Source: Thermococcus gorgonarius
GTDB taxonomy: Archaea > Methanobacteriota_B > Thermococci > Thermococcales > Thermococcaceae
DNA length: 64,000 nt
Direction: 5' to 3'
Assembly: GCF_002214385.1 (NCBI RefSeq)
Contig: NZ_CP014855.1
Span: 434,001-498,000 of the forward strand
A model generated the notes under the pieces. It did not search any database, was not told where the DNA came from, and worked only from the letters and a program-made list of their open reading frames with translations. Below are positions 50,732 through 58,219 of the stretch, in pieces. The stretch's first letter is position 1. Each line of letters begins with the position of its first letter. A program made the translations under genes and the position numbers.

Positions 50732-51805
50732 ATGGAGATAAGGTACAGGCCAGAGGAACTCACGAGGCTCCCGAGGAGCGTTCGTTACGAGAAAGGAAAA
50801 GTCATCATGATCGACCAGACTCTCTTGCCAAGGGAGTTCAGAACGATAGAGCTGACGACCGTTGACCAGGTCGCAGAGGCGATAATAACGATGAAAGTCC
50901 GCGGTGCGCCCGCCATCGGCGCCTCGGCGGCCTTCGGTTTGGCCCTCTACGCCGATACAACCAAAGCCAAGACCAAGGAAGAGTTCATGGACGGCTTTTA
51001 TTCGGCCTACGAAAGGCTCAAGAACACGAGGCCGACCGCTGTGAACCTCTTCTGGGCGCTCAACAGGATTAAGAAGCTTGTGGAGGAGAACCTTGAGAGT
51101 CCTCTCGACGAGATAAAGAGGCTCATCGTTAATGAAGCGCAAAAGATAGCCGACGAGGACGTTGAGGCCAACCTTAGAATGGGCCACTACGGTGCCGAGG
51201 TTCTGCCCGAGGGGAACGTTTTAACGCACTGCAACGCCGGAAGCTTGGCGACCGTTCAACTCGGAACCGTTGGGGCCGTGTTGAGAGTTATGCACCGCGA
51301 TGGGACGCTTAAGCTCCTCTGGGTGGACGAGACGAGGCCCGTCCTCCAGGGCGCCCGTCTGAGCGCCTGGGAGTACCACTACGACGGCATTCCCCTCAAG
51401 CTGATAACCGACAACATGGCCGGCTTTGTCATGCAGCAGGGCAAGGTCGATGCCATAATAGTCGGCGCCGACAGGATTGTAGCAAACGGCGACTTCGCCA
51501 ACAAGATAGGAACCTACAGTTTGGCAGTCCTCGCGAGGGAGCACGGGATACCTTTCTTCACGGTAGCACCGCTTTCAACGATAGACATGAGCCTCAAGAG
51601 CGGAAAGGAGATACCCATAGAGGAGAGGAAACCTGAGGAAGTCCTCACCTGTGGCGGCTGCAAGATTGCTCCCGATGTGGACGTCTACAATCCAGCGTTC
51701 GACGTCACGCCGCACAAGTACCTAACCGGAATAATCACGGATCAGGGCGTCGTGTGGCCGCCGTTTGAGAGGAATTTGAAGAGGCTGTTCAAGGAGCAAC
51801 TTTGA
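50732..51805 (+). CDS. mtnA: Methylthioribose-1-phosphate isomerase
   Basis: This 357-residue eIF2B-alpha-like isomerase interconverts 5-methylthioribose-1-phosphate and -ribulose-1-phosphate in the methionine salvage pathway. [28 protein letters not shown] with the catalytic Cys, and [11 protein letters not shown] with the catalytic Asp are the expected motifs. A related enzyme, ribose-1,5-bisphosphate isomerase of the AMP pathway, is shorter and would differ here. It diverges from THEP1 by 54 bp. Its 3' end overlaps the decayed vapC remnant on the minus strand by 17 bp. Confidence 0.94.
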
Positions 51806-51989
51806 GGTTTTCTTTCTCTGCCGCTTTTTTCAACCTATCATCAAACGTTACAAAGAGGCTCAGGTCGTCTTTATTTTCAATGCAGAGGCGGGCTGAAGAG
51901 AATCGAGGGTCTTAAGGTCGTGTTTGAGAACTAGTGTTGTAGCCAAACTTCTTCACAAGTGCGCTTGTGTCAAAGAACGCTACCTCCAT
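51789..51989 (-). pseudogene. vapC: VapC toxin remnant (PIN domain), internally deleted
   Basis: The first 14 codons read MEVAFFDTSALVKK, the typical PIN-domain N terminus with its Asp. Thereafter the frame is lost. Another frame gives VLKHDLKTLDSLQPASALKI, the middle of a PIN domain, and yet another NKDDLSLFVTFDDRLKKA, its C-terminal Asp motif. In all about 200 nt remain of a normal 390-420, so 60 to 70 codons in the centre are gone and the ends are out of frame. The gene begins inside the last 10 nt of vapB. It cannot give a functional RNase. Confidence 0.82.
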
Positions 51990-52138
51990 TCCTCTTCCCT
52001 CTCCTTGACCACATCCTCACTCAGCTCTCCCACGATGTTGGAAAGGGCCTTCCTAACTTCCTCCAGGTTCGGGGCCTTCTTGAAGAACTTTCTCAGGTGG
52101 GAGTAGGTTAGCTGGACTTTCTTGGCGGGAGTTCCCAT
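51980..52138 (-). CDS. vapB: VapB-like antitoxin, orphaned
   Basis: This 52-residue protein begins MGTPAKKVQLTYSHLRKFF and ends with a Glu/Arg-rich tail, EEEWR. The position and the 10-nt overlap with a PIN-domain start are typical of a VapB antitoxin gene. ATG at 52138 is preceded by GGTGGTAAG. The frame is intact although the toxin is destroyed, so it may be kept neutrally or have a new target. DNA-binding domain type is not certain from this short sequence. Confidence 0.72.
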   Translation of the reverse strand: MGTPAKKVQLTYSHLRKFFKKAPNLEEVRKALSNIVGELSEDVVKEREEEWR

Positions 52139-52153
52139 CTTACCACCATCATT

Positions 52154-52453
52154 TTATCGTTCCTGCGGATTAAATAATTTCCGGAGCCTCTCCGTGAGTT
52201 TTCCCCCGACTCCCTCCCCTACCACTTCCTCAACGAAAACGCCCTCTACCTCACCCAGCTCCTCCTCGAGGGCAGGCAAGAAGAGGCCAAGGAGCTCCAG
52301 CGGCTCAAGACACGGGCAGTCCACGGAGTACTCGAGTGGCTTTTCCGGCAGTTCTATCCTCAGAGATAGGCCTTTCCCGGTTTTTGAAACCTCAAACGGT
52401 ACGGAGCACTCCTTCAGGATTATCCTGCCCCTCACTATCATCAGCAGAGTCAT
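52154..52453 (-). CDS. Small hypothetical protein with CPC motif
   Basis: This protein of 95 to 99 residues has no recognised family. It starts MTLLMIVRGRIILKECSVPF, includes SVDCPCLEPLELLGLFL, and ends in a helical segment. ATG at 52453 or 52441 are both possible; neither has a clear ribosome site. It lies 50 bp downstream of the GNAT gene on the same strand, so it may be the last member of that cluster. Hydrophobic/acidic residues alternate in a way that supports a real protein. Confidence 0.6.
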   Translation of the reverse strand: MTLLMIVRGRIILKECSVPFEVSKTGKGLSLRIELPEKPLEYSVDCPCLEPLELLGLFLPALEEELGEVEGVFVEEVVGEGVGGKLTERLRKLFNPQER

Positions 52454-52503
52454 AGAGGTGATGGAGAAAAAGGTTTCCAAAACAGAAAGTTTGAAACCGG
52501 ACG

Positions 52504-53004
52504 TTAAAGAGGTTTCTCCATAATAACCGCCCTCTCGGAGTAGCCCTTTTCGGCATACCACTTCCTCGCGGGGTTGTTAACGTCAACCCTAAGGGAGATT
52601 TTCCTGGCACCCTTCTTCCTTGCCCATTCTTCGGCTTTCTCCAAGAGGGCGCTCCCTATGCCCATCCCCGGAAAGAGGGTCTCGATATCGTATATGTAGG
52701 CCGAGGGGACGAAGTCCACCGTATCAATTCTCAGGCAGACCCACACGTGGCCGAGGTAGCGCCCGTAGGGGTCTGCTGCGACGAAGAACTTGTGCTCGCC
52801 CGTTGAAAGGAGGCTTTTGATGACCTTCCCGTAGTTCTCCTCGTACTCCTCGTCACTAAGCTGGAAGCGGGAGAAAGAGCGGCTTATCCTCATGTCGTTC
52901 TCGAATATCTCGTCGAGATAGTCCTCACCGTCGAGTATGGTGAAGTCCCCGGCGGTCTTTTCAACCGGCGGCAGTGCAGGGGGCCTTTTCTTCTTTGAGA
53001 ACAC
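52504..53004 (-). CDS. GNAT acetyltransferase
   Basis: This 166-residue GNAT protein has the acetyl-CoA motif FPGMGIGSALLEKAEEWARK and the terminal VNNPARKWYAEKGY segment. A charged N-terminal region (residues 1-25) resembles a linker. GTG at 53004 places the start inside the end of the MurL-like gene, with 44 nt of overlap in another frame. Substrate unknown; from its cluster it may acetylate an amino group of a product of the neighbouring enzymes (inference). Confidence 0.83.
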   Translation of the reverse strand: MFSKKKRPPALPPVEKTAGDFTILDGEDYLDEIFENDMRISRSFSRFQLSDEEYEENYGKVIKSLLSTGEHKFFVAADPYGRYLGHVWVCLRIDTVDFVPSAYIYDIETLFPGMGIGSALLEKAEEWARKKGARKISLRVDVNNPARKWYAEKGYSERAVIMEKPL

Positions 53005-54439
53005 CGCTTATCGCCTCCTCGCGGGAAATTCTGACCCAGTGGTCACCCTTCAAATAGGCGTAGCCCTTCGTGTAGGGTTCCAGCAGTCTGTAGAGCTTCT
53101 CGCGGATCTCCTCGGGAATCGCATCAAAGCTTGAGTTCCTGCCGTCGAAGTGGAGCATTTCAACGTGCCAGTGGGGCTTCCCGTCGAGTGGGAACTCGGG
53201 ATTTCTCTGCTTTATGAGGTAGAGTGAGTGCTCAAGCTCCCCCCTGTCCAGCCGGGTTTTTCCTTCGTTTATGCGCCGGGCGAGGCCTTCAACGTGCTCG
53301 GGTTTGTATTTTATTAAAGTTGGGTCTATGCCGTTCGCGAGGAGGAACGTTAGAACTCCATTGCACTTGAAGCACTTCCCGCATGGGACGTAGTCGTCTC
53401 CCTCCCTGTGGACGGAGTGGCAGCTCCTCTGGAGCCTGAAGAGCTCCGGGTAACGGCTGTGAAGCACGCGCTCCACGATGAGGCCGGTTATAGGTCTGAC
53501 TGCCGACCACTGCCTTATCCCGAGACCCCTCTCCGCGAACCAGCGCGTCATGTATCTCTCGAAGTCCTGGCTCTGGTCGTAGGTGGCGTAATAGTGGCGG
53601 ATTCCATTGTACTCGTAAGTTAACCCCCTCGGGTCGTCATATTCGTTGCCGAAGAGCAGGTTCCCGATGCCATACTTGTGCATCAGCGGGAGGAAGGCGA
53701 AGGAGTAGCCCGCGAAGAAGAACAGCCGTATGGGATAGACCTCGGCCCTTGGTTTGCCCACGTTCTGGAGGATTTTCATGTTCTTTTCTATGAAGGTGTA
53801 GAGCCTGTCGGCGTTGCTCCAGACCCTTTTGGTTCTCGGCTCGTTCCTCTCGAACCAGCGGTAGGCGGGGATTGCCACCTTCCAGTGGCCGCCGGACTCG
53901 TTGTAAAAGAAGGGATAGACCTCGCAGCCGAGCTCCTTCATCATGCCGTAGGTGAGGAGGCTCTCCTTGCCACCGCTCAGCATTACGGCGCACTTGGAAT
54001 AGTCTGGCTCAAAGTCGATGGGTTCCTCCTCAATGCTTTCGGGCAAAAGCTTAGCCATCGGCTCGGCCATCTCCGGCGTTACTTCCTTCGGGATGTACTC
54101 CTCTCTCACGAAGCCCGTCCTCTGGACTATCCTGTTGACGAAGATGTCGCGAGCAGTTACCTCCATCATGTCGCGGAAGAACTTGAGGTCTCTCGGGTCG
54201 AGTGAGAAGTCAAAGCGTATCTCCGGTGTAAAGAGGCCGTAGTTTATGGCCGGGATCATGCTCATCAGCTTTGCAAAAGCCTCGACCTTTGGGATTTTCT
54301 CGTGATAGCGGTGGATTAGAGTGTAATCCAGCTCTTCACCGTCGATGCCGAGGACATATCTCGCTGAGATGCGCCTTGCGGAGACCCTTGGCCTCTCTAT
54401 GAGGATATAGTCAAAGCACTTCAGCTCCGGCAGGCTCAC
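52961..54439 (-). CDS. MurL-like PP-loop ATPase
   Basis: This 492-residue protein has a PP-loop SGGKES near residue 154, a zinc-like CGKCFKC near residue 355 and a long N-terminal region. The arrangement, including INYG, LLFGNEY, a DFER segment before SAVRPITGLIVERVL and the RSCHSV/CGKC end, fits the family of bacterial MurL, the ATP-dependent epimerase of the terminal L-Glu of UDP-MurNAc-L-Ala-L-Glu. Archaea lack that substrate, so the real one must differ. GTG at 54439 follows GAGGTGAGGACGA, overlapping the upstream gene by 29 nt. Confidence in the PP-loop class is high, in the MurL relation moderate. Confidence 0.72.
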   Translation of the reverse strand: MSLPELKCFDYILIERPRVSARRISARYVLGIDGEELDYTLIHRYHEKIPKVEAFAKLMSMIPAINYGLFTPEIRFDFSLDPRDLKFFRDMMEVTARDIFVNRIVQRTGFVREEYIPKEVTPEMAEPMAKLLPESIEEEPIDFEPDYSKCAVMLSGGKESLLTYGMMKELGCEVYPFFYNESGGHWKVAIPAYRWFERNEPRTKRVWSNADRLYTFIEKNMKILQNVGKPRAEVYPIRLFFFAGYSFAFLPLMHKYGIGNLLFGNEYDDPRGLTYEYNGIRHYYATYDQSQDFERYMTRWFAERGLGIRQWSAVRPITGLIVERVLHSRYPELFRLQRSCHSVHREGDDYVPCGKCFKCNGVLTFLLANGIDPTLIKYKPEHVEGLARRINEGKTRLDRGELEHSLYLIKQRNPEFPLDGKPHWHVEMLHFDGRNSSFDAIPEEIREKLYRLLEPYTKGYAYLKGDHWVRISREEAISGVLKEEKAPCTAAG

Positions 54440-55502
54440 TCGTCCTCACCTCTCCAGGCCCCTTCGCCTTGCTCGCTATCAGCCTGGCTATATCCTCGAC
54501 GCCCTGGTAGAACGGGACGCGCGTCATGCTCCCGGTCTCGCTCTCTATCCGCTCTGCCCATTCGAGGGCCTCCTCCTTCGTGAGGTTCTGGGTGTTTATC
54601 GTGATAGCTATCGGTGGCTTCCCTGAGAGGAGCTCTATCATCCTTATGTAGTTCTCAAGAGGCGGAATCCTGTACTGGGGGAAGTCGTCGAAGGTCAATC
54701 TTCCCGGCGCATGCTGGAGGACGATGAAGTCGGGCCTGGCAGCGCCTATCAGCTCGAAACCGCCCGGAAAGGCCGGGTGAAGGAGCGAGCCCTCGCCGTG
54801 GGTAACTATTATGTCTGGCCTCTCCCCTACCCAGGCGCGGTAGAAGACGTCTTCTATTGCGCCAGCAACGAAGTCGTTGATGATGGAGTCCATGACTATG
54901 CAGTACTTGAAGCCCTGCATCCAGCCGGTCTGGCCCATAGCTATGAACTCGCTCTTCAGGCCGAGGGCCTTAAACGCCTCGTGGAGCATTATCGCGGTGG
55001 TCCTCTTTCCTATGGCCGCATCTGTTCCAAGAACCGCTACTTTGGTGGCCTTGACGTCCTCTATCTTCCCGGTAAAGGGAACGCGGTAGTTGTAGAATAT
55101 CTTCCTGACGTCGATTATCTCGACTCCCCTCTGCCTCGCGAGGCGCTTCAGGTAGGGGTCGTCGCTGAGGAAGTGGTGAAGACCACTGATAACTCCAAGG
55201 CCCGCTTTTATTGCTTTCGCAACTATCCTTCTGTAGCTAGGTGGGAGAACTCCTCCAGGAGTGGCGACGCCAATGATGAGCCACTTTGCATCCGGGTTCT
55301 CCTTAAGTGCCTCCTCGATGGTTCCGTATATAGGGATGCCCCTGTTTATACCGTCGAGCACTTCTCCCGCGTCCTTTCCCGCTAGAGTTGAATCTATCAA
55401 GCCGACTATCTTATACTTTCCCGAGTACCGCACGAGCCCGTGCGCCGTTTTTCCATCCGTAGTAAGATAGCGCCCCTCCGTAAGCACCAAAGCCTTCTCC
55501 AC
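54411..55502 (-). CDS. DUF1611/DgcN-like P-loop protein
   Basis: This 363-residue DUF1611 protein has an N-terminal domain (LVLTEGRY, VGLIDSTLAGKDAGEVLDG, GIPIYGTIEEAL) and a C-terminal P-loop domain, with GTDAAIGKRTT as the phosphate loop at about 156. HGEGSLLHPAFPG and LQHAPGR are conserved. A bacterial family member, DgcN, is a D-glutamate N-acetyltransferase working with epimerase DgcA. GTG at 55502 has GGAGGTG exactly 6 nt upstream; GTG at 55511 overlaps the ribosome site. It overlaps the PLP gene by 92 nt and the MurL-like gene by 29. Confidence 0.86.
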   Translation of the reverse strand: MEKALVLTEGRYLTTDGKTAHGLVRYSGKYKIVGLIDSTLAGKDAGEVLDGINRGIPIYGTIEEALKENPDAKWLIIGVATPGGVLPPSYRRIVAKAIKAGLGVISGLHHFLSDDPYLKRLARQRGVEIIDVRKIFYNYRVPFTGKIEDVKATKVAVLGTDAAIGKRTTAIMLHEAFKALGLKSEFIAMGQTGWMQGFKYCIVMDSIINDFVAGAIEDVFYRAWVGERPDIIVTHGEGSLLHPAFPGGFELIGAARPDFIVLQHAPGRLTFDDFPQYRIPPLENYIRMIELLSGKPPIAITINTQNLTKEEALEWAERIESETGSMTRVPFYQGVEDIARLIASKAKGPGEVRTSEPAGAEVL

Positions 55503-56400
55503 CGTGGGCACCTCCGGTCAACACCAACACGAAGTTTCCTTTCCACATTCCAAACTTCCTAACGAACTTGATCAGACCGGCAACCGTTAAGGCCGAGGCC
55601 GGCAAAACCGAAAGGCCCGTCGTAACGCGGAGCAGCTCGGCGCATCTCAGGGCAGTATCGTCGGCGAAGCCGAAGACGTAGCCATTGGACTCTTTTACAG
55701 CCCTCATTGCCTCACCGAGATCGAAGGATATCTCCGAGACGAGGGGCTCGTTGACCGGTGTCTCCGCTATATCCCTCCTTGGGTCGCCGTAGAACTCCCA
55801 GAGGAGCTGGTTGCCAAAGGCTGTTGTGACGCCCACCATCCTCGGCTTAGCCTTCCCGCGGAAGCCGTGCCAGATTCCCGCCAGAGTGGTACCGTTCCCA
55901 ACCGGGACGAACATCGCATCCGGCCTTATCTCGCGTAGTATATCCTCCGCTATCGAGGAATATCCAACATAGTCCACTTCCGGATGACTTCCGGGGTTTG
56001 CGTCGTAGATGCCGTTTGCAAGGGCAAAGCGCCTGCTCTCAGCTACAACCTCCTCGTACGTCCCCGGCCAGGGGATCACCTCCGCGCCGAGGGCCTTCAT
56101 CTCGCCGGCCCTTTCTAAGGTGTAGCCGGCCGGCACAAAAACGAAAGCCTTCAGGCCGTAGAGCCGTGCGTAGTAGGCGATGGAAACACCGTAGTTCCCG
56201 CAGGTGCCCACGGTGATGGCAGAATAGCCCTCTTCAAGGGCTTTTTCCACGTGGGCTCTGGCAATTCTGTCCTTGTGAGTTCCGGTGGGGTTTCTTCCTT
56301 CGTAGTCTATGTAGATTCCCTCAACCCCCAGGGCCTCCTCGAGGAGAGGGGCCCTTACGAGGGGGCCGCCGTCATCATCGGAGTTCTTTTCGGCCTCCAT
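55411..56400 (-). CDS. PLP-dependent threonine-synthase-like lyase
   Basis: This 329-residue PLP enzyme of fold type II (threonine synthase, serine/threonine dehydratase and cysteine synthase group) has Lys near 43 in GTHKDRI and GTCGNYGVSIAYY as the substrate loop. VPVGNGTTLAG is the phosphate-binding loop. It lacks the N-terminal domain and length of canonical threonine synthase, so its substrate is open; a racemase or amino acid lyase is possible. ATG at 56400 has GGTGG 6 nt upstream, and TATA-like ATAAATTAAAAATG on the minus strand precedes it. It heads a cluster of four overlapping genes. Confidence 0.84.
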   Translation of the reverse strand: MEAEKNSDDDGGPLVRAPLLEEALGVEGIYIDYEGRNPTGTHKDRIARAHVEKALEEGYSAITVGTCGNYGVSIAYYARLYGLKAFVFVPAGYTLERAGEMKALGAEVIPWPGTYEEVVAESRRFALANGIYDANPGSHPEVDYVGYSSIAEDILREIRPDAMFVPVGNGTTLAGIWHGFRGKAKPRMVGVTTAFGNQLLWEFYGDPRRDIAETPVNEPLVSEISFDLGEAMRAVKESNGYVFGFADDTALRCAELLRVTTGLSVLPASALTVAGLIKFVRKFGMWKGNFVLVLTGGAHGGEGFGAYGGALSYYGWKNGARARAVLGKV

Positions 56401-56517
56401 TTCCAGCCACCAGATCCGTTGTTTTCGTCCAAACACGGTTATACGGCATTTTTAATTTATGTCGCCACTGTCATTCCCTTCATTTTTTGAGGGAAGCCAA
56501 GTGGAGTTCCTCAGAGG

Positions 56518-56679: not shown

Positions 56680-56880
56680 ATGTACTACCCACCCAAGAAG
56701 AAGGTTCAGCCCAGGAAGGTTGAGGAAGAAGAGGATGAGGAATTCGAGCCCCTCGACGCTGTTGAGGATGCCTATGAGAGCTGGGATGAGGAAGAGGAGT
56801 GGGGCGAAGAAGAGGAATGGGATGATGAAGATTGGGGCGAAGAGGAAGAATGGGATGAGGACTGGGATGATGAAGACTGA
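56680..56880 (+). CDS. Extremely acidic small protein
   Basis: This 66-residue protein begins MYYPPKKKVQPRKV, with a basic head, then becomes almost wholly Asp/Glu and Trp, in repeats such as WGEEEEWDDED. About half the residues are acidic and Trp is spaced periodically. It is probably disordered and may act as a charge mimic of nucleic acid or as a chaperone tail. ATG at 56680 follows GGAGGTG by 6 nt, so expression is well supported even though the sequence is low-complexity. No homologous family is known to me. Confidence 0.78.
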   Translation: MYYPPKKKVQPRKVEEEEDEEFEPLDAVEDAYESWDEEEEWGEEEEWDDEDWGEEEEWDEDWDDED

Positions 56881-56950
56881 ACATCCTTCCTCTTTCTTTT
56901 AAACCTCAAGCTTTTTAAATTCTTCTTTTTCCCAGCCCGGGGTGAAAATC

Positions 56951-58219
56951 TTGAGGCGCCGCCCGCAAAAGAGAAAACGGACAACCCTTAAAGCCCTGGA
57001 AAAGGGGCGGCAGATGAAACACCGGCCAGACCCTGGAAAGTGGTTCTATTCGTTCATCCCCTTTAAAGTCTCAACTGGTGGTGCCGCCCCCCTAATCTCG
57101 CTCCTCACGATGAACCTCGGCGGCGGCCCGACGGATGTTGGTGTTGTGAACGCGATAGGCAGCACCGCATCGATGCTGGGCGGTCTCTTCTGGGGCAGGC
57201 TGAGCGACAAACTCAACAGGAGGAAGGTTTTTCTCCTGACGGGGTTTTTGGGCACCGCGGTGGCTTCCATCCTTTTCGCCCTCGCGGAGAGTGTCCACCA
57301 GGTTATGGCGATAAACGCGCTCTACACATTCTTTATCGCGGCGACAATACCTATTCCGATCCTCATAATAACCAAGGCCTTCCGCCTGGAAGACTGGGAC
57401 TACGCCATAGGAAGGTTCAACGAGATAGGCGGCTGGGCATGGGTCGGGGGCATGGTCCTCGGCCTGGTAATGGCCCGGTTCCTCAGTTTGAGAGAGATAT
57501 TCGTGGTTCTGGGCCTCATCGGGTTGTTATCCCTCCCGTGGGGCGCCGGAACAATACGGGAGGTTCCTTTACACATTGACAGGCGGGTTCTTGGGATATA
57601 CACGGGTTACGTCGTCGAAAAGTTCAGGTATCTGCCGAACATGGTAACACACCTCCCAAGGTTCTCCACGGAGGGCTTTGGAAGGCTCTACATTTCCACA
57701 ATTCTCTTCTGGATTGGGGCCATGCTGTACTTCACCCAGTTTCCGGTTCTCCTGAAAAGCAGGGGACTGGGCGCGACGGAGCTTTACATCATGAGTATTG
57801 CAAACTCCGCCATTGCAGCCTACATGTACACCCGCGTTGGACTGAGACTCAGGAAGACGGGTGGCTACGGGGCGCTTAAGAAGGGCCTGGCTCTGAGGGG
57901 AGTTGCGTTCCTCCTGCTGGCGGTCTCGACTTTTTTGAGGGGAAGCGTTTTCTTCGTTCTGGCGTTCATCTCTTACGCTATAGCCGGCTACACCTGGTCT
58001 TACATAAGCGTCTCAACGTCCTCGATAATTTCCCGTCGGGCACCGCCGAAAAAGAAGGGCTCCCTAATAGGTGCCTACAACCTCATCAGCTCTCTGGGGG
58101 CCATAATCGGTAACCTGATAAGTGGATTTGTGGTCGAAGCGCTGGGCTTTACCGCTGACTTTGCCCTCGCTTCATCACTGATGTTCCTGGCCCTTGTCCC
58201 AATCCTCCGCGAACGTTAA
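56951..58219 (+). CDS. MFS transporter
   Basis: This 422-residue 12-helix transporter has the A-motif loop FWGRLSDKLNRRKVFL. A very basic head (MRRRPQKRKRTT) precedes helix 1. TTG at 56951 is chosen because GGGGTG at 56939-56944 lies exactly 6 nt upstream; GTG at 56942 falls within that ribosome site. The substrate is not readable. The iron alcohol dehydrogenase gene starts 35 nt downstream of its stop. The relation to the SLC45-like pair at 25.7-28.4 kb is distant. Confidence 0.82.
   Translation: MRRRPQKRKRTTLKALEKGRQMKHRPDPGKWFYSFIPFKVSTGGAAPLISLLTMNLGGGPTDVGVVNAIGSTASMLGGLFWGRLSDKLNRRKVFLLTGFLGTAVASILFALAESVHQVMAINALYTFFIAATIPIPILIITKAFRLEDWDYAIGRFNEIGGWAWVGGMVLGLVMARFLSLREIFVVLGLIGLLSLPWGAGTIREVPLHIDRRVLGIYTGYVVEKFRYLPNMVTHLPRFSTEGFGRLYISTILFWIGAMLYFTQFPVLLKSRGLGATELYIMSIANSAIAAYMYTRVGLRLRKTGGYGALKKGLALRGVAFLLLAVSTFLRGSVFFVLAFISYAIAGYTWSYISVSTSSIISRRAPPKKKGSLIGAYNLISSLGAIIGNLISGFVVEALGFTADFALASSLMFLALVPILRER

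Follow-up and report, generated by a model that had tools for sequence, protein, structure and literature searches.

Some heat- and acid-loving archaea carry a cassette of three enzyme genes, the substrates of which are probably unusual amino acids, perhaps in their mirror-image form. Our analysis started from a 64,000-nucleotide (nt) stretch, here referred to as the window, of the complete 1.67-Mb genome of Thermococcus gorgonarius, a member of the Thermococcales (contig NZ_CP014855.1, positions 434,001 to 498,000). In the window, four overlapping genes on the minus strand encode a fold-type II pyridoxal phosphate (PLP) enzyme, a DUF1611 protein, a PP-loop enzyme and a GNAT acetyltransferase (Table 1), and the order of the first three, PLP–DUF1611–PP-loop, is common to Thermococcales and a second phylum, Thermoplasmatota. 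An earlier note on this DNA, made from the sequence alone, had described the four genes with mutual overlaps of 92, 29 and 44 nt and had proposed that they make or handle D-glutamate or a glutamyl conjugate, capped by acetylation. The open reading frames (ORFs) were found at those places with those overlaps, and the identities given to them agreed with the Pfam matches to PALP, the DUF1611 domains and Acetyltransf_1 and with the SGGKES motif of the PP-loop protein. D-glutamate as the substrate of the cassette is not supported; we obtained no evidence for it.

The cassette is inherited jointly in two archaeal phyla

The PP-loop protein was present in 27 of 94 Thermococcales genomes, counting one copy truncated by a contig end (G052; G and L numbers are our handles for genomes and loci) and two short remnants (G010 and G011). 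The DUF1611 protein was present in 24 of the 94, and all 24 carried the PP-loop gene as well. The two genes were adjacent in every Thermococcales locus read, within the order PLP–DUF1611–PP-loop–GNAT and usually together with a divergent MFS gene. Several genomes showed that the enzymes of the cassette also decay together. In G028, the PLP, DUF1611, PP-loop, GNAT and MFS genes had each been broken or left incomplete, whereas the genes on either side, encoding an aIF2B-like protein and an iron alcohol dehydrogenase (Fe-ADH), were intact; in G026, the PLP, DUF1611 and PP-loop genes were broken between intact flanks, and in G069 the PLP and PP-loop genes were broken. The PLP gene of G089 has lost residues 60-242 (L075:5244-5584, plus strand), and since the other three genes beside it are intact, DUF1611, PP-loop and GNAT can persist without PLP. 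The cassette is patchy and repeatedly lost in Thermococcales, and the co-conservation of its enzymes is far above chance.

A scan of contigs with an alignment of the Thermococcales PP-loop proteins uncovered two loci in Thermoplasmatota, with 35-38% identity. Among 390 Thermoplasmatota genomes, PP-loop matches were found in 68 (66 of them strong) and the DUF1611 family in 104, and a comparison of the lists by hand placed DUF1611 within approximately 1.5 kb of the PP-loop gene in 65 of the 66 genomes with strong matches. In the exception (G221), a run of 100 N residues lies at the 5′ end of the PP-loop gene, where the DUF1611 gene would end. The lone PP-loop gene of this genome has a GNAT gene and an epimerase-like MR_MLE gene in its vicinity (L222:1267-5898).

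In 16 of the 19 Thermoplasmatota loci read, a PLP gene was located upstream on the same strand; it was missing from L115, L116 and L134. Because the Thermoplasmatota loci keep these genes, some of them without PLP, we regard DUF1611 and PP-loop, commonly joined by PLP, as the core. GNAT, which was constant in Thermococcales loci and not seen in the Thermoplasmatota cassettes read, is an addition to this core made in Thermococcales, as are the MFS gene and a small acidic ORF. The Thermoplasmatota loci have neighbors of their own. The next gene upstream in 14 of the 19 loci encodes a D-aminoacyl-tRNA deacylase (PF04414), the position of which was read in cassette-bearing loci only, a Tsr3-type gene (PF04034) converges from the opposite side in most loci read, and an EamA transporter gene follows the cassette in L115 and L116. 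Plasmids searched by tblastn contained no match to the PP-loop protein or to the distantly related protein from L131, and none of the viral contigs searched matched the PP-loop protein. Joint conservation in related genomes, which the earlier note had left to be checked, extends across two archaeal phyla.

The PP-loop protein belongs to a family apparently akin to MurL and QueC

The 492-residue PP-loop protein of the window had no match in Pfam (up to an E value of 10) or in NCBIfam (up to an E value of 1), where the profile for MurL is NF041275. Its AlphaFold2 model was confident (mean pLDDT of 91), and a Foldseek search of the PDB with this model returned QatC first (E value of 8.5e-6), followed by QueC (9e-5) and Cap9 (1.4e-3). 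No MurL structure was found in the PDB, and the fold comparison therefore does not include MurL. Viral matches of the protein were QueC-like. In addition to the fold, the protein shares with the QueC/QatC/Cap9 family (PF06508) an SGG-type P-loop and a four-cysteine site, and its N-terminal extension is comparable to that of QatC. However, both sequence features are variants, as it carries SGGKES instead of SGGxDS and C(x)12CxxCxxC instead of the QueC zinc site C(x)8CxxCxxC, and the canonical QueC motifs YxQxHxxE, VPxRN and YPDC (PMC13329287) are absent from the window protein. All members tested fell below the gathering score of PF06508; the window protein was not matched and the best relative reached 20 bits against the required 22. 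The operon-linked sequences retain SGGK-S, the four cysteines C340, C353, C356 and C359, which are invariant in 19 sequences, and the motif E181-S-G-x-H185-W, located roughly at the position of the QueC motif YxQxHxxE. A role in 7-deazaguanine metabolism was judged unlikely from the absence of the QueC substrate motifs alone, the genome not having been searched for QueC, QueD or QueE.

The earlier note had read the protein as a counterpart of MurL, the bacterial ATP-dependent epimerase. Both use ATP, are of similar length (447 profile positions for MurL) and have the P-loop at a similar offset. When the sequences were compared with MurL by the profile NF041275, 4 of the 19 family members were matched (best E value of 5e-6), as opposed to 3 of 19 for QueC (best 5e-4). 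The best matches of either kind came from distant homologues in L130 (2919-4151, minus strand) and L131 (437-1852, plus strand), which are 18-20% identical, carry SCGKDS and do not lie beside DUF1611. L130 gave the MurL match of 5e-6, residues 146-355 of the L131 protein aligned with MurL positions 132-334 (4.8e-4), and the C-terminal part of the L134 protein was matched as well (3.8e-4), so that some relatives resemble MurL over the C-terminal half in addition to the P-loop. On the other hand, these relatives scored 10-25 bits against a cut-off of 700 bits, none of 25 genomes had a protein above it, and the Thermococcales members, including the window protein, had no match. No Mur-ligase domain that could represent a MurD2 partner was detected among the window neighbors scanned, and these archaea lack murein. 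The homology to MurL thus appears weak but positive, through relatives of the window protein. As to which of the two families the protein aligns with better, sequence leans slightly toward MurL and fold toward QueC, and we conclude that it belongs to a separate family akin to both and part of neither.

A possible exchange of partners beside DUF1611, between the PP-loop enzyme and amino acid epimerases

In the window, the DUF1611 protein scored above the cut-offs for both DUF1611 domains (PF17396 and PF07755), and its relatives in the PDB are 2obn, 2g0t and 7xrj. The earlier note had likened it to DgcN, which together with DgcA forms a pair of D-glutamate N-acetyltransferase and N-acetyl-D-glutamate racemase. 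Membership in the same superfamily stood, as did the two-domain organization and the placement beside a second enzyme; nevertheless, the protein reached 161 bits with the DgcN profile NF041892, the cut-off of which is 480, and has no dgcA neighbor. It therefore appears from these scores to be a relative of DgcN and not DgcN itself. Seven Thermococcales genomes tested for a DgcA-like gene had none and yielded only a weak MR_MLE match, evidently enolase. In the cassette, the place of DgcA is taken by the PP-loop enzyme.

The neighborhoods of DUF1611 elsewhere point to amino acid epimerases, in line with the link drawn in the earlier note. Among 20 Thermoplasmatota genomes with DUF1611 and without the PP-loop gene, an MR_MLE gene, of the epimerase family to which DgcA belongs, adjoined DUF1611 in four (G096, G117, G132 and G112) and lay one gene away in two (G163 and G129), whereas none of 20 cassette genomes had such a gene adjacent to DUF1611 (6/20 versus 0/20; one-sided Fisher's exact test calculated by hand, P = 0.01, a guide only because the genomes are related). 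The MR_MLE gene of L209 scored 254 bits as an L-Ala-D/L-Glu epimerase and 203 bits as DgcA, both below cut-off, and two DUF1611 proteins linked to MR_MLE genes scored 229 and 263 bits with the DgcN profile (cut-off of 480). In a tree of 46 DUF1611 sequences, all PP-loop-linked members formed one group (27 rows, support 92/89), and a separate group (13 rows, 100/100) held all six MR_MLE-linked members. A third epimerase-type partner was observed in L212 (1070-3250, minus strand), where DUF1611 adjoins a relative of ornithine racemase (NF040742, 407 bits, cut-off of 480). Collectively, DUF1611 tends to have amino acid-inverting enzymes as neighbors, a place that the PP-loop enzyme fills in the cassette. 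This exchange of partners is our main argument for a putative epimerase-type role of the PP-loop enzyme.

The PLP enzyme is probably not a threonine synthase

The PLP protein of the cluster passes NF004996, a model named threonine synthase, with 365 bits against a cut-off of 266, and its best Foldseek matches are threonine synthases, with which it shares the fold and the Schiff-base lysine motif. With the thrC model TIGR00260, however, it scored 72 bits (cut-off of 167.1), while a separate ThrC of the same genome passes this model with 200.7 bits. Furthermore, all 16 aligned members of the PLP family have K47, the Schiff-base lysine, and C71-G-N, in contrast to threonine synthase, which has Thr before G-N. 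The family is therefore probably something else than its label suggests. The second base of serine racemase, Ser84, sits at the position equivalent to C71, and C71 may have a two-base role.

Proposed function and its alternatives

We tentatively favor a scheme in which the cassette handles an amino acid by acylating its amine and activating its carboxylate. The PLP enzyme would produce or racemize the amino acid, and DUF1611 would N-acylate it, as its relationship to DgcN suggests. The PP-loop enzyme would then adenylate the carboxylate of the N-acyl amino acid, a step suggested by the PP-loop chemistry of MurL and QueC and by the four-cysteine site, and would most likely invert the alpha-carbon using ATP, so that a D-amino acid would be either made or removed. 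This outcome is suggested by the exchange of partners, the weak MurL signal and the neighboring D-aminoacyl-tRNA deacylase, and the enzyme would thereby stand in for the enolase-family epimerase DgcA found beside other DUF1611 proteins. In Thermococcales, GNAT would add a further acetyl step and the MFS protein would move the substrate or the product.

Several observations weigh against this scheme. The window protein itself has no match to the MurL profile, the best match to that profile in its own genome is a different PP-loop protein (E value of 0.16), and its predicted fold is closest to those of QatC and QueC, the known chemistry of which is amide formation. PLP is dispensable, as three loci (L115, L116 and L134) lack it and G089 carries a deletion in it. 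For many other DUF1611 genes there is no epimerase-type neighbor, the partner exchange amounts to six loci in related genomes and could in part be coincidence, and the deacylase and Tsr3-type neighbors in Thermoplasmatota are both housekeeping genes, the order of which may have been kept for other reasons.

The PP-loop enzyme might instead form an amide or a conjugate, as QueC and Cap9 do, and we consider this outcome almost as probable as epimerization. If the PP-loop enzyme were a ligase of the QueC/QatC type, the product would be an N-acylated conjugate, such as an osmolyte, a signal or a metallophore, exported by the MFS protein, and no stereochemistry would be involved. This reading, which we consider possible if doubtful, is in accord with the ranking of the Foldseek matches, with the similarity of the four-cysteine site to the QueC zinc site and with the presence of a transporter gene in most Thermococcales loci and after the cassette in L115 and L116. 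Moreover, enzymes of the QueC family activate a carboxylate and then transfer it to an amine (PMC13279940). It is at odds with the missing QueC motifs, with the better scores of the distant relatives in the MurL profile and with the epimerases and racemases found beside DUF1611 elsewhere.

A catabolic or detoxifying route, in which environmental or misincorporated D- or N-acyl amino acids would be cleared through N-acylation and epimerization to the L form and the MFS protein would serve for import, seems unlikely to us even though the bacterial DgcN-DgcA pathway is such a route (PMC10845958, PMC12363236) and the cassette would be its counterpart. Patchy distribution and repeated loss in Thermococcales are as expected of a nutritional accessory, and the D-aminoacyl-tRNA deacylase neighbor in Thermoplasmatota would fit as well. 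However, the known MurL works in one direction, from L to D (PMC5808125), the cluster showed no deacylase that could set the L-amino acid free, and the direction of the route is not legible from sequence. Finally, the PLP protein might be an ordinary threonine synthase with unrelated neighbors adjacent by chance, as its NF004996 score and Foldseek matches would allow. Given the separate ThrC of the same genome and the low TIGR00260 score of the cluster protein, this is very improbable, and the co-conservation of the genes, kept in order across two phyla and decaying together, already largely refutes it.

Companion genes and layout of the locus

Table 1. Features of the cassette region in the window
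Feature	Position	Strand	Evidence and remarks
PLP fold-type II enzyme, threonine synthase-like paralogue	55411..56436	-	PF00291 (PALP), E 2.8e-55; NF004996, 365 bits
DUF1611 protein, DgcN superfamily, P-loop GTDAAIGKRTT	54411..55511	-	PF17396 (DUF1611_N), E 3e-31; PF07755, E 6e-64
PP-loop enzyme, 492 residues, SGGKES and four-cysteine site	52961..54439	-	Kin of QueC/QatC and MurL; no curated family
GNAT acetyltransferase, fourth gene	52504..53004	-	PF00583 (Acetyltransf_1), E 4e-11
Divergent MFS transporter	56942..58219	+	PF07690, E 2.4e-35; accompanies the enzymes in most Thermococcales loci
Small acidic E/D/W-rich ORF, 66 residues, MYYPPKKKV...	56680..56880	+	Preceded by GGAGGTG; possible accessory
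Small CPC-motif ORF	52154-52561		Real, with relatives; outside the cluster

The PLP gene likely starts with the ATG at 56400 and the DUF1611 gene with a GTG at 55511 or 55502; the upstream GTG would lengthen their overlap from 92 to 101 nt. The PLP frame extends approximately 30 residues beyond its usual C terminus into the DUF1611 gene (55411-55511). Because this overlap is just 4 nt in L072 and similar loci, the long overlap in the window looks like a stop-loss extension.

Unlike the CPC-motif gene, the divergent MFS transporter usually belongs with the enzymes in Thermococcales, which it accompanies in most loci. A strict linkage was rejected, since the MFS gene occurs without the enzymes in seven genomes and no close MFS copy accompanies the enzymes of G039 and G078. 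G054, which has no enzymes, keeps the MFS gene at the same chromosomal site. The small acidic ORF, in which MYYPPKKKV is followed by E/D/W repeats such as EEEEWDEEEEWDDEDW, is preceded by an inverted repeat of the CCCCTC...GAGGGG type as well as by GGAGGTG. Almost every Thermococcales locus examined has this ORF between its PLP and MFS genes, and the copy in the decayed G028 contains two stops. Its candidacy for a carrier or substrate protein in the cluster was demoted, as it travels with the MFS gene also in genomes without the enzymes and was not seen in Thermoplasmatota loci. The CPC-motif gene, placed next to the cluster by the earlier note, is a real ORF with relatives and does not belong to the system: no copy was found next to the cluster in L072-L076, and only fragments of it were matched in the decayed G028. 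At approximately 51786-52140 on the minus strand, inspection by eye revealed what look like the remains of a toxin–antitoxin pair with a PIN-domain toxin (MEVAFFDTSALVKKFGYN..., after which the frame is broken).

Significance

Free D-amino acids in hyperthermophilic archaea have been reported since 1999, and as late as 2018 what they do was described as unclear (PMC6047364). The cassette offers a concrete, knock-out-ready gene set for probing them. It also brings in a PP-loop family that has no curated name and a near-constant partner in DUF1611, and it offers a connection from epimerases of the peptidoglycan type to the QueC fold. In the most specific version of our scheme, DUF1611 would act as an acyltransferase in murein-free archaea, and its N-acyl amino acid product would be inverted by an ATP-driven, MurL-like PP-loop epimerase that replaces DgcA; the PLP enzyme would be the PLP-dependent aspartate racemase reported from Thermoplasma. 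Taken as a whole this combination is improbable, but if true, it would constitute a pathway dedicated to the free D-amino acids that occur in these hyperthermophiles.

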